In this document: positions 55,634 through 58,680 of the stretch, piece by piece
Layout: the number at the start of each line of letters is the position of its first letter
Numbering within the stretch: position 1 is the first letter of the stretch
Origin: a virus
Virus record (IMG/VR): IMGVR_UViG_3300026097_000022
Span: 1-63,103 of that record
Length of the DNA: 63,103 nt
Direction: 5' to 3' (one strand)
Notes under the pieces: generated by a model
Told to the model about the DNA's origin: nothing
Databases searched by the model: none
What the model saw: only the letters and a program-made list of their open reading frames with translations
Program-made: the position numbers and the translations under genes

Positions 55634-55662
55634 ACTAAACTTAAATTAATTGCCTTATGAAA
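55634..55662 (+). repeat. 29-nt leader repeat, copy 1
   Basis: The stretch from ACTAAACTTAAATTAATTGC through ATGAAA is identical to 55889-55917. Both copies cover the leader and first two codons of a gene. The second copy begins at the end of the hammerhead ribozyme. Confidence 0.85.
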
Positions 55663-55830
55663 AATCAAAACTCAATCAACCCACAAGAAGCTAAAGCACT
55701 ACTTGACAACGTACGTGCTGACCTAGACAAGCTCATTGCGCTAGGTGAAAGCTACGCACATTTCCAATCTGCTCAGGCTACGCACAAGTACCTGAAGAAG
55801 GCTAAGAATGCCTTAAAAGGGCTCAGCTAG
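55657..55830 (+). CDS. Hypothetical helical protein, 57 aa
   Basis: Starts at the GCCTTATG leader. Sequence features: N-P-Q-E-A-K-A-L-L-D-N-V-R-A-D-L-D-K-L-I-like amphipathic helices and a Lys-rich end (Y-L-K-K-A-K-N-A-L-K). No family is recognised. The hammerhead ribozyme begins 6 nt after its stop. Confidence 0.6.
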   Translation: MKNQNSINPQEAKALLDNVRADLDKLIALGESYAHFQSAQATHKYLKKAKNALKGLS

Positions 55831-55836
55831 TTAGCT

Positions 55837-55890
55837 GTTACGCTGATGATGGGTGAGCACACCCGAAACTGCCTTCGGGCAGTCCGTAAC
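55837..55890 (+). ncRNA. Type I hammerhead ribozyme
   Basis: Stem I: GTTACG (55837-55842) with CGTAAC (55885-55890). Core CTGATGA (55843-55849). Stem II: GGGTG/CACCC (55851-55855, 55860-55864) with loop AGCA. Core GAAA (55865-55868). Stem III: ACTGCC/GGCAGT (55868-55873, 55878-55883) capped by TTCG. Cleavage triplet GTC with C17 at 55884. Every core base (C3-A9, G12-A14, the A15.1-U16.1 pair, C17) is present. The one deviation is an extra T (55850) before stem II. Cleavage after 55884 would leave the next gene (ATG 55912) a 27-nt leader with a 5'-OH. It lies on the coding strand between two small genes. Confidence 0.8.
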
Positions 55891-55917
55891 TAAACTTAAA
55901 TTAATTGCCTTATGAAA
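55889..55917 (+). repeat. 29-nt leader repeat, copy 2
   Basis: Identical to 55634-55662. Here it starts within stem I of the hammerhead, so the self-cleaved RNA begins just before this conserved leader. Confidence 0.85.
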
Positions 55918-56286
55918 GAATTAATCCCTATGGAATTTATCAGTAGCCACGGAACACTATACGTCAATGAGAACGGCACTATAAACAGCATTGATTGTGA
56001 TGAAGTTGATTGGCTAGGCGATATCAGCAAAGTAGATATCGAAGAGTTGGATTACTACCTGAGCCTATATGACCTTGAACCGACTCAGGGTGGTGATGTA
56101 CTTGACTTCGGGTATTGGGACAAAGATGGTGTATACCATCAGCCGAGTAGACAATGGAGGGAAGATGTGTTTCATAGAATCTCAGTCGACTCCGACCCTG
56201 ATGAAGCCAAGGATTATTGGACTGAAGAGAAGATACAAGAAACCATTGAGAAGAGTTTCGAGTGGATAAAGAAGAATAGACTATAG
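55912..56286 (+). CDS. Acidic hypothetical protein, 124 aa
   Basis: M-K-E-L-I-P-M-E-F-I-S-S-H-G-T-L-Y-V, then D-C-D-E-V-D-W-L-G-D, G-Y-W-D-K-D-G-V-Y, and a helical end (I-E-K-S-F-E-W-I-K-K-N-R-L). Acidic and Trp-rich, with no recognised domain. Its mRNA leader is predicted to be generated by hammerhead cleavage 27 nt upstream. It is followed by 360 nt of structured non-coding RNA. Confidence 0.65.
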   Translation: MKELIPMEFISSHGTLYVNENGTINSIDCDEVDWLGDISKVDIEELDYYLSLYDLEPTQGGDVLDFGYWDKDGVYHQPSRQWREDVFHRISVDSDPDEAKDYWTEEKIQETIEKSFEWIKKNRL

Positions 56287-56294
56287 ATTGGTTC

Positions 56295-56341
56295 GCTCAT
56301 TGGATGCTTCAGGCATCGCCTAGGTCGTGCTAGGAGTGAGC
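56295..56341 (+). ncRNA. Compact perfect three-way-junction RNA
   Basis: The closing stem GCTCATT/AGTGAGC (56295-56301, 56335-56341; 6 Watson-Crick pairs and one G-U) contains hairpin GATGC-TTCAG-GCATC (56303-56317) and hairpin CCTAG-GTCGTG-CTAGG (56319-56334). Only single G linkers separate the stems. All 17 pairs form without bulges in 47 nt. It starts 9 nt after the 124-aa gene. There is no T-run and no hammerhead core. The class is unknown. Confidence 0.65.
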
Positions 56342-56485
56342 TCTAAAACAATTGTGAAAATAATTGTGGAAATGTATTGCGGTCTCGGAATATCTTTTTA
56401 GATTAGCAAAGCAAATGAGGGAGAGCCCGTAAGCCCTACCTCAGCTAGTTAGGTCTAGCAACGTACTTTACTTATTGGAAAACAA

Positions 56486-56622
56486 ATCAGTCTGATGAGG
56501 GCAGTCCATTCAACTGCCTGAGCACATTGTGCTCGACTCCTGAAACGGAGCGAAACCACGGAACGTAGGAAGTACGTATGATATTTAAGAGGGCAGTGTT
56601 ACAGCTGTCCTTGGTTACTGAT
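56486..56622 (+). ncRNA. Second hammerhead-like RNA, elaborated
   Basis: Stem I: ATCAGT (56486-56491) with ACTGAT (56617-56622). Core CTGATGA (56492-56498) followed by G; CGAAAC at 56551-56556. Stem III: ACCACGGA (56555-56562) with TCCTTGGT (56608-56615), 7 of 8 paired. Cleavage triplet GTT with U17 at 56616. The stem II position holds GGCAGT/ACTGCC (56500-56518), GAGCAC/GTGCTC (56520-56534) and CTCC/GGAG hairpins rather than one helix. It lies in the 360-nt gap before the gene at 56647. The rest of 56287-56646 holds the three-way junction and small hairpins, with no ORF. Confidence 0.4.
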
Positions 56623-56646
56623 ATTACTAATTAAAATAAATGCCTT
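56613..56646 (+). promoter_or_regulatory. GGTTACTGATA...GCCTTATG leader
   Basis: GGTTACTGATA (56613-56623), an AT-rich spacer, then TGCCTT before ATG 56647. The same elements precede genes at 57292, 57905 and 58681, and GCCTTATG alone precedes 55423, 55657 and 55912. It could be a promoter for the phage sigma-like factor, a translation leader or a ribozyme product end. Confidence 0.5.
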
Positions 56647-56988
56647 ATGATTACATTCACTGAATTACTAGAATCGTTTGCCTTCAATGAGGAAGGTAGA
56701 CTACCAAATGCAATTGATCCAACCGCACTTTTATCAGGTATTGATATTGTAGGTTTTGAAATCACTACTAACCGAGATACGTATGTTATCGCACTGGATG
56801 ATGACATCGAATACGTAGAAGAAACCGATGATTGGTTTAGCCTTTGCGAAGGCATCGATGCAAACGTGTTCATCACTGAAGCAGGTCTTGTACTGCTATC
56901 GTTTTACCCCGTTATAGATGGTAAGATAGATACCACTGATAGCCGTATGGAAAGTATTGCGTGTTTCACTAAACAATTGAAAAAATGA
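56647..56988 (+). CDS. Acidic hypothetical protein, 113 aa
   Basis: M-I-T-F-T-E-L-L-E-S-F-A-F-N-E-E-G-R, then I-A-L-D-D-D-I-E-Y-V-E-E-T-D-D-W, and a helical Lys end (C-F-T-K-Q-L-K-K). Acidic alpha/beta protein with no recognised domain. Its leader carries the GGTTACTGATA motif. The stop overlaps the next start (ATGA), so the two are translationally coupled. Confidence 0.65.
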   Translation: MITFTELLESFAFNEEGRLPNAIDPTALLSGIDIVGFEITTNRDTYVIALDDDIEYVEETDDWFSLCEGIDANVFITEAGLVLLSFYPVIDGKIDTTDSRMESIACFTKQLKK

Positions 56989-57254
56989 CAAGCAGAGATA
57001 AAATGATGGAAGTACTCGGTGAGTATTTCCCTATCACCGGAACGACCGAAGACTTCGATGGTAGCGAAGGTGGTATTTGGATTTGTGGCGAATGTGGATA
57101 CACCAACCTGAGAGGTGTGCCGTACTTCGATTACTACGCAACAACCGGTTCGTATGAATTCGGTGTATTGTCTAACCTAGTTAAACTAGCTGAGCGACAC
57201 GGATGGTACTTTGAATGGTACGATGCCGGGACCATTATGGTGACTCCTATGTAG
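56985..57254 (+). CDS. Hypothetical protein with one CxxC, 89 aa
   Basis: M-T-S-R-D-K-M-M-E-V-L-G-E-Y-F-P, then G-I-W-I-C-G-E-C-G-Y-T-N (a C-x-x-C that could be half of a zinc site), F-D-Y-Y-A-T-T-G-S-Y-E-F-G-V and Y-F-E-W-Y-D-A-G-T-I-M-V. Possibly a small zinc-ribbon-like fold, but a second Cys pair is missing. Coupled to the upstream gene by ATGA. Confidence 0.6.
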   Translation: MTSRDKMMEVLGEYFPITGTTEDFDGSEGGIWICGECGYTNLRGVPYFDYYATTGSYEFGVLSNLVKLAERHGWYFEWYDAGTIMVTPM

Positions 57255-57262
57255 GGGTTACC

Positions 57263-57291
57263 GGTTACTGATAACTTTAATTAAAAGCCTT
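57263..57291 (+). promoter_or_regulatory. GGTTACTGATAAC...GCCTTATG leader
   Basis: GGTTACTGATAAC at 57263-57275, then TTTAATTAAAAGCCTT directly before ATG 57292. The clearest copy of the repeated leader. Confidence 0.5.
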
Positions 57292-57857: not shown

Positions 57858-57876
57858 TAGAAGCCTCTACGGAGGT

Positions 57877-57904
57877 GGTTACTGATAACTTAATTTTATG
57901 CTTT
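57877..57904 (+). promoter_or_regulatory. GGTTACTGATAAC leader
   Basis: GGTTACTGATAACTTAATTTT, then TGCTTT, before ATG 57905. Copy of the repeated leader. Confidence 0.5.
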
Positions 57905-58516: not shown

Positions 58517-58680
58517 GTCAAGGCAAGGCAACTCCCGGATATCTTCGGGAATGAAGGACATTCTGCCGAACTCAATTTAATTAAGGTTAAAGATCGCCTT
58601 GAGCCTCCGGGTAAAGCATCGATCTAAGAATGTTCAAGATTGACAGCAAGGAAAGACTTGCGGTTACTGATAACAACATT
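58517..58680 (+). other. Structured non-coding spacer
   Basis: TCAAGGC just after the 91-aa gene can pair with GCCTTGA about 75 nt later. Inside, TTCGGGAATG pairs with CATTC-TG-CCGAA around AAGGA. CCCGGA can pair with TCCGGG, and GATCG with CGATC, which would cross other stems (pseudoknot-like). It ends with the GGTTACTGATAAC motif (58662-58674) before ATG 58681. No ORF of note. Confidence 0.45.

Follow-up and report, generated by a model that had tools for sequence, protein, structure and literature searches.

A type I hammerhead ribozyme between two early phage genes, and a larger predicted hammerhead with dispersed candidate target sites

Introduction

The DNA that we analyzed, the whole 63,103-nt stretch of virus record IMGVR_UViG_3300026097_000022 (positions 1 to 63,103, hereafter the window), contains between two of its genes an element resembling a type I hammerhead ribozyme, and so raises the question of what such a ribozyme does in a phage operon. 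The role of phage hammerheads has been open since their discovery. Known natural hammerheads cut themselves, and, as far as is known, the main natural trans-acting RNA-cleaving ribozyme is RNase P RNA. Perreault et al. 2011 described clustered prophage hammerheads that flank single genes or gene blocks, and proposed that they process long transcripts into shorter mRNAs (PMC3088659).

An earlier note on this DNA, made from the sequence alone, assigned it to a phage, and the window does encode a terminase, a portal protein, an Erf-like protein and an exonuclease. Among cultured phages, podoviruses of Flavobacterium and Cellulophaga come closest to it, with a portal identity of ~30%. An assignment to the crAss-like phages was considered and dropped, because phi38:1 belongs to the Pervagoviridae. 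Repeated motifs of other kinds were also seen in this group: on the minus strand of Cellulophaga phage phi38:1 (L294) there are 10 copies of AACACTATCA, a possible leader or promoter motif, most of them before genes, and on the minus strand of locus L085 (MW202828) there are 10 copies of the palindrome GTGTCGTTAACGACAC, most of which stand a short way before an ATG.

Results

The hammerhead at 55837-55890

The element at 55837-55890 (plus strand) reads GUUACG-CUGAUGA-U-GGGUG-AGCA-CACCC-GAAA-CUGCC-UUCG-GGCAG-UC-CGUAAC. Stem I, which is open, has 6 bp (GUUACG at 55837-42 with CGUAAC at 55885-90), stem II has 5 bp (GGGUG/CACCC, 55851-55 and 55860-64), and stem III has 6 bp (ACUGCC/GGCAGU, 55868-73 and 55878-83), with CUGAUGA at 55843-49, GAAA at 55865-68 and C17 at 55884 as the last base of a GUC triplet. 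The invariant core (C3 U4 G5 A6 N7 G8 A9, G12 A13 A14, the A15.1-U16.1 pair and H17) is complete. These core bases, the three stems of 6, 5 and 6 bp with stem I open, and the GUC triplet were all listed in the earlier note, and we found every one of them in place. The direct A9-stem II junction of the textbook hammerhead is not met, one U being inserted at 55850 (core and insert together, 55843-55850, plus strand); we refer to hammerheads with this extra U after A9 as class A and to those without it as class B. Cleavage is predicted after 55884, 27 nt 5' of AUG 55912.

A loosely spaced core is expected about 1.6 times per window, which gives some support to the view that the element is a chance resemblance or a non-cleaving structured spacer. 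When both core and stems were demanded, our three-stem scanner found no comparable match in 400 dinucleotide shuffles of the window, and a covariance model whose 36 training sequences were type I hammerheads from phages outside the window lineage identified 55837-55890 as its sole match in the window (47.8 bits, E = 7e-13); with covariation added to these results, chance or an inert spacer is scarcely credible. A competing fold does exist, since the minimum-energy fold of an isolated 68-mer favours a local hairpin over stem I. We conclude that the element separating the two phage genes at 55837-55890 is, almost certainly, a true type I hammerhead that cuts itself; this reading rests on sequence, there being no cleavage data.

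We also examined the element for tertiary contacts. In 4 of 4 class A hammerheads, loop II keeps AGCA and the bases immediately upstream of stem I keep UAGCU, an arrangement that allows 3 pairs. Among 149 type I copies there is no general complementarity between the stem I region and loop II beyond a weak signal, and general Watson-Crick pairing of loop II with the flanks as a tertiary contact is unsupported.

The earlier note proposed Rfam covariance models as a check, and here the outcome was negative. Rfam gave no match for 55837-55890 at the gathering threshold when run on the window, none up to E = 5 when run over 4 kb, and only RAGATH-1-hammerhead (15.8 bits) with a 91-nt query containing it. 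A canonical relative without the extra U, in locus L034, reached 29.7 bits with RF00163 against a gathering threshold of 34, and in the type I arrays of L008, L105, L166 and L255 no copy was found at the Rfam gathering threshold. Since a canonical relative and whole type I arrays also score under the threshold, the negative result reflects the model and not the element: compact phage type I hammerheads are missed by RF00163 at its gathering threshold. The core, the stem order and the open stem I of 55837-55890 are shared with RF00163 (Hammerhead_1), whereas the extra U after A9 and the compact phage-type stem I and loop II are not.

A survey of 80 loci fetched by terminase (TerL) alone, and hence blind to hammerheads, gave 12 covariance-model matches at E <= 1.5e-10, every one of which lies on the early-gene strand. 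Class A is present in L008, L014/L015 and L023, and class B in L008, L011, L014/15, L017, L019, L034 and L076. The type of gap is kept in these relatives, with the element following a stop codon immediately and the next ATG ~25 nt further on, and ribozyme and leader are kept while the flanking genes vary from phage to phage. The MAFFT alignment of class A with class B was excluded from the lineage pair counts, because it misplaced stem II. The placing of a type I hammerhead in an early phage operon, with a predicted cut upstream of ATG 55912, therefore has covariation, relatives and position behind it, and class A is a cis-acting hammerhead that adds to the known set of phage hammerheads, its cleavage being inferred.

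The hammerhead lies between an upstream gene of 57 aa (55657-55830, plus strand), the stop codon of which ends 6 nt before it, and a gene of 124 aa (55912-56286, plus strand), for which no relatives of the protein were found. After the predicted cut the new 5' leader (55885-55914, plus strand) would consist of the 3' strand of stem I followed by AACUUAAAUUAAUUGCCUU-AUG. The leader had been described as a repeated element, and this holds, in that its core recurs at 55638-55659 and the repeat begins just downstream of the predicted cut; an exact search for the leader in viral contigs found nothing. Immediately 3' of the 124-aa gene's stop codon, at 56295-56342, there is a conserved three-way-junction-like RNA, in which the hairpin CCUAG-GUCGUG-CUAGG is nearly fixed and the remaining stems covary. 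This RNA has no Rfam match; it is also present in L008, L011, L015 and L023, and has diverged in L082/L334/L335/L336.

Hammerheads in phages generally

Pattern scans of viral contigs identified full hammerheads in 113 of 117 loci and, for the insert-bearing core, in 50 of 60. Applied to bacterial and archaeal genomes, the insert-type pattern yielded full hammerheads in 3 of 27 loci, with a total close to chance expectation, and the insert-type signal is therefore viral. The extra T had been singled out as an oddity; given the full stems at the 50 viral loci, it is tolerated natural variation, and does not exclude the element from membership. Stems I and III are formed in 81 of 85 non-redundant phage sites, compared with a mean of 7.0 and a maximum of 13 when flanks were swapped, a test that is unbiased in that the 85 sites were chosen by core and stem II only. 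Our A2 pair counts, by comparison, are biased, as the sequences had been selected for pairing.

These hammerheads occupy a characteristic position. Type I hammerheads start within -20 to +30 nt of a sense stop codon in 150 of 210 distinct copies (9.4 expected), and 81 of the 210 type I copies in phage contigs fit tightly between stop and start (0.95 expected). Other ribozyme types are found between genes too: comparison with the annotation placed all of the type II copies in Streptomyces phage Paedore (L290), at least 12, in inter-CDS gaps on the gene strand, and Daudau (L292) has at least 8 type II hammerheads between genes. A type III hammerhead with an extra U is present just before ORF2 of Pseudomonas phage LKA1 (L291, 1501-1554).

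In the 39 viral loci with at least three type I copies, the likeness of stem I is 0.765 within a phage and 0.512 between phages, and the within-phage excess is greater for stem I than for stems II and III. Identical stem I sequences within a genome were considered as a sign of circular RNA, with only partial success.

Hammerheads elsewhere are often located in repeats and retrozymes (PMC4918200), and this, together with the higher stem I likeness within phages, could be taken to mean that phage hammerheads are mobile or selfish elements, left over from DNA repeats or mobile RNAs that carried ribozymes, and take no part in mRNA processing. Such an origin accounts poorly for the sense strand, the stop-to-start placement, the absence of coding content and of any larger repeat unit, and the occupation of the same slot elsewhere by other ribozyme types, as in the Paedore arrays, and we regard it as highly improbable.

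The products predicted for the different types share a further property. Hammerheads of types I and II would leave the stem III hairpin at the end of the upstream product, whereas type III would cut 5' of its own hairpins, so that a need for hairpin-capped 3' ends would predict an additional hairpin before type III copies. Counting hairpins of at least 6 bp that end within 8 nt of the ribozyme, we found an extra 5' hairpin in 21 of 50 type III hammerheads (2.4 expected from dinucleotide shuffles), compared with 11 of 156 for type I (3.9 expected) and 1 of 24 for type II (1.4 expected); type III hammerheads with an adjoining 5' hairpin occur, for example, in L165, L164, L244 and L134. The extra hairpin 5' of type III suggests hairpin-capped 3' ends as a shared purpose, and points to mRNA 3' ends made by ribozymes and bearing a stabilising hairpin, which remains an inference.

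A second, larger predicted hammerhead and its candidate target sites

Aligning the non-coding region 56290-56665 with relatives revealed a second, larger predicted hammerhead at 56486-56622. Of the earlier note's account, the hammerhead at 55837-55890 (plus strand) stands, and what it overlooked was this second hammerhead 0.6 kb downstream with its dispersed candidate target sites. The order of parts is AUCAGU-CUGAUGA, two hairpins, stem II, GAAACC, a hairpin, hairpin-GGUU^ACUGAU (^ marks the predicted cut) and the leader of the gene at 56647. The catalytic strand of this hammerhead, which we term class C, extends over 56486-56558 (plus strand, as are all parts given here): it begins with the arm AUCAGU (56486-91) and the core CUGAUGA (56492-98), continues with hairpins HP1 (56500-18) and HP2 (56520-34), and ends with stem II (56535-51), GAAA (56552-55) and the stem III arm ACC(A) (56555-58). 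A further hairpin, HP4 (56563-56577), follows it and has four compensated pairs. The scanner missed this hammerhead because its stem III loop is long. Upstream of it, 56400-56485 forms a conserved structured leader, with a hairpin CUAG-UUAGGU-CUAG whose stem covaries and whose loop is fixed.

Across eight relatives, 97% of cells in 56486-56622 pair, and 15 pairs show compensatory changes, a number above that in all 500 shuffles. Stems I and III barely vary within lineage A, and there is no lineage-internal covariation for them. HP1 and HP2 are inserted between A9 and stem II, the point at which class A has its extra U; no precedent for two hairpins in this position was found in the literature searched. 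They could impair catalysis, and the minimum-energy fold of 56486-56622 competes with the hammerhead fold; both points count against the explanation that we prefer. The complete class C catalytic strand is present once in each of nine related phage genomes or contigs, and a search of cultured phage records for the enzyme region gave no matches of substance.

The 3' part of the larger hammerhead, hairpin-GGUY-ACUGAU-AACUUAAAUU..AUG, is repeated before later genes. In the window, site 1, the hammerhead's own, consists of a hairpin at 56589-56612 and GGUU^ACUGAU at 56613-56622, with a predicted cut after 56616 and an AUG at 56647. Three more sites, all on the plus strand and without a local core, have hairpins at 57239-57262, 57863-57876 and 58646-58661 followed by GGUU^ACUGAU at 57263-57272 (AUG 57292), 57877-57886 (AUG 57905) and 58662-58671 (AUG 58681), respectively. 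Gene boundaries with the arrangement hairpin-GGUH^ACUGAU-leader-AUG number 4 to 14 per genome, mostly without a local core; in whole records we counted 4 in the window, 6 in G001, 7 in G002, 12 in G003, 14 in G004 and 13 in G005. All sites are downstream of the catalytic strand and before genes, mostly one per gene boundary. In class C genomes every GGUY^ACUGAU is on the early-gene (sense) strand and none is on the opposite strand, and three relatives lacking a class C strand with this arm have zero GGUY^ACUGAU sites.

Taken over 79 sites, position 17 is U in 66, C in 12, A in 1 and G in none, matching the N-U-H rule, and none of the six class C records searched contains GGURACUGAU. Of the 79, 74 have a hairpin of 5 bp or more immediately before the site. 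Orphan sites have no arm AUCAGU within -120 to +60 nt, save for one chance copy in G006, and cannot form a hammerhead locally since no arm copy is nearby. A catalytic strand acting on them would have to do so with short helices, of 6 bp and 3 bp, with duplex energies of about -4.8 and -0.9 kcal/mol.

Arm and sites also change together. The L084 contig and the 64-kb genome G006 contain an element of the same layout with the arm ACAGAU, which differs from the arm of the window lineage at 4 of 6 positions, and every site has changed to match: there are 8 hairpin-GGUY^AUCUGU sites in L084 and 9 in G006. Genomes with one kind of site have essentially none of the other, with the exception of a single GGTNACTGAT in G006. 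When all fetched loci were scanned for arms with matching orphan sites, just these two arm types were found, so that only two combinations of arm and site are known; orthologous sites are not independent.

The simplest alternative is that the class A and the larger hammerhead each cut themselves once, and that the other hairpin-GGUYACUGAU copies are duplicated leaders that are never cut. The leader module is indeed also repeated without any hammerhead (55638-55659), and a site of the larger hammerhead's own lies 121-130 nt beyond its arm. Duplication alone does not account for a core, GGUH-ACUGAU, that is nearly invariant beside hairpins that differ in sequence, with only one one-mismatch site among the 79, which retains pairing through G-U. 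Nor does it account for the joint change of sites and arm in L084 and G006, or for the local stem III being no longer than that of the distant sites in L015 and G006. We therefore consider self-cleavage alone unlikely.

Another reader of the shared sites, for instance a protein, could in principle be what maintains their likeness. If hairpin-GGUYACUGAU were the recognition site of a regulator, an RNase or an RNA polymerase, the hammerhead would merely overlap one copy, and the other repeated intergenic motifs in relatives (the L085 palindrome, and AACACTATCA in phi38:1) show that such repeats occur in this group. This would leave unexplained why each of the nine genomes or contigs has a single catalytic strand complementary to the motif, why arm and sites changed to match each other, and why G never precedes the cut at the 79 sites, and it appears to us very unlikely.

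Discussion

Our analysis indicates, with good confidence, that 55837-55890 is a functional type I hammerhead within an operon-wide system of ribozyme processing. The architecture, the covariation, the placement and the matching of arm and sites are features legible in the genomes themselves; from them we infer that the RNA is cut, that distant sites are reached and that mRNA is affected. It also seems to us likely, if somewhat less secure, that a natural trans-acting or long-range multi-target hammerhead, a single catalytic RNA derived from a leader in the early operon, cuts the operon mRNA before most of its genes, with an arm and targets that co-evolve between phages; this cleavage is untested.

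In the mechanism that we propose, class A would cut the early polycistronic mRNA between the stop of the 57-aa gene and the AUG of the 124-aa gene. The class C catalytic strand (arm AUCAGU, core CUGAUGA, stem II and GAAACC) would pair with its own downstream site, and the same strand would also pair with the equivalent hairpin-GGUH^ACUGAU sites before later genes and cut each, reaching distant sites either along the same transcript by looping or in trans after release. Each cut would leave a hairpin and a 2',3'-cyclic phosphate at the 3' end of the upstream message, and would give the downstream message a short leader beginning with a 5'-OH. In this way the early mRNA may be diced, some cuts being made by hammerheads on themselves where they lie and others by a single catalytic RNA that serves many sites; the likely benefit is separate, stabilised mRNAs without a host nuclease.

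Known systems resemble this one in part. Like the prophage hammerheads of Perreault et al. 2011, the hammerheads described here lie in numbers beside phage genes; new are the window lineage and the quantification of stop-start placement for 210 copies, and dispersed sites for one catalytic strand are absent from that description. Rodent Clec2 mRNAs contain a discontinuous hammerhead (Martick et al. 2008, via PMC6155905), in which a long spacer parts the enzyme and substrate strands as in class C. Clec2 pairs one enzyme with one substrate, whereas one class C enzyme strand would serve 4 to 14 substrates over several kilobases. Artificial trans hammerheads of the Uhlenbeck type, like class C, bind an N-U-H target through short arms I and III (PMC6155905; PMC6412130), but are engineered, whereas class C is natural and has two accessory hairpins and a hairpin adjoining each target. 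We found no natural trans-acting hammerhead and no dispersed substrates described in the literature searched; because most subscription papers and all preprints lay outside the search, priority is not established.

For phage hammerheads generally, the placement data turn a suggestion into a testable rule, namely a stop-start gap, the sense strand and a hairpin at the new 3' end, and the hammerhead arrays of cultured phages such as Paedore and Daudau offer a handy laboratory system. If one strand does cut dispersed sites, it would be a small natural ribozyme with many targets, and these phages would possess an RNA-only operon-processing system, built on a natural trans-cleaving hammerhead design that might work at cellular magnesium.
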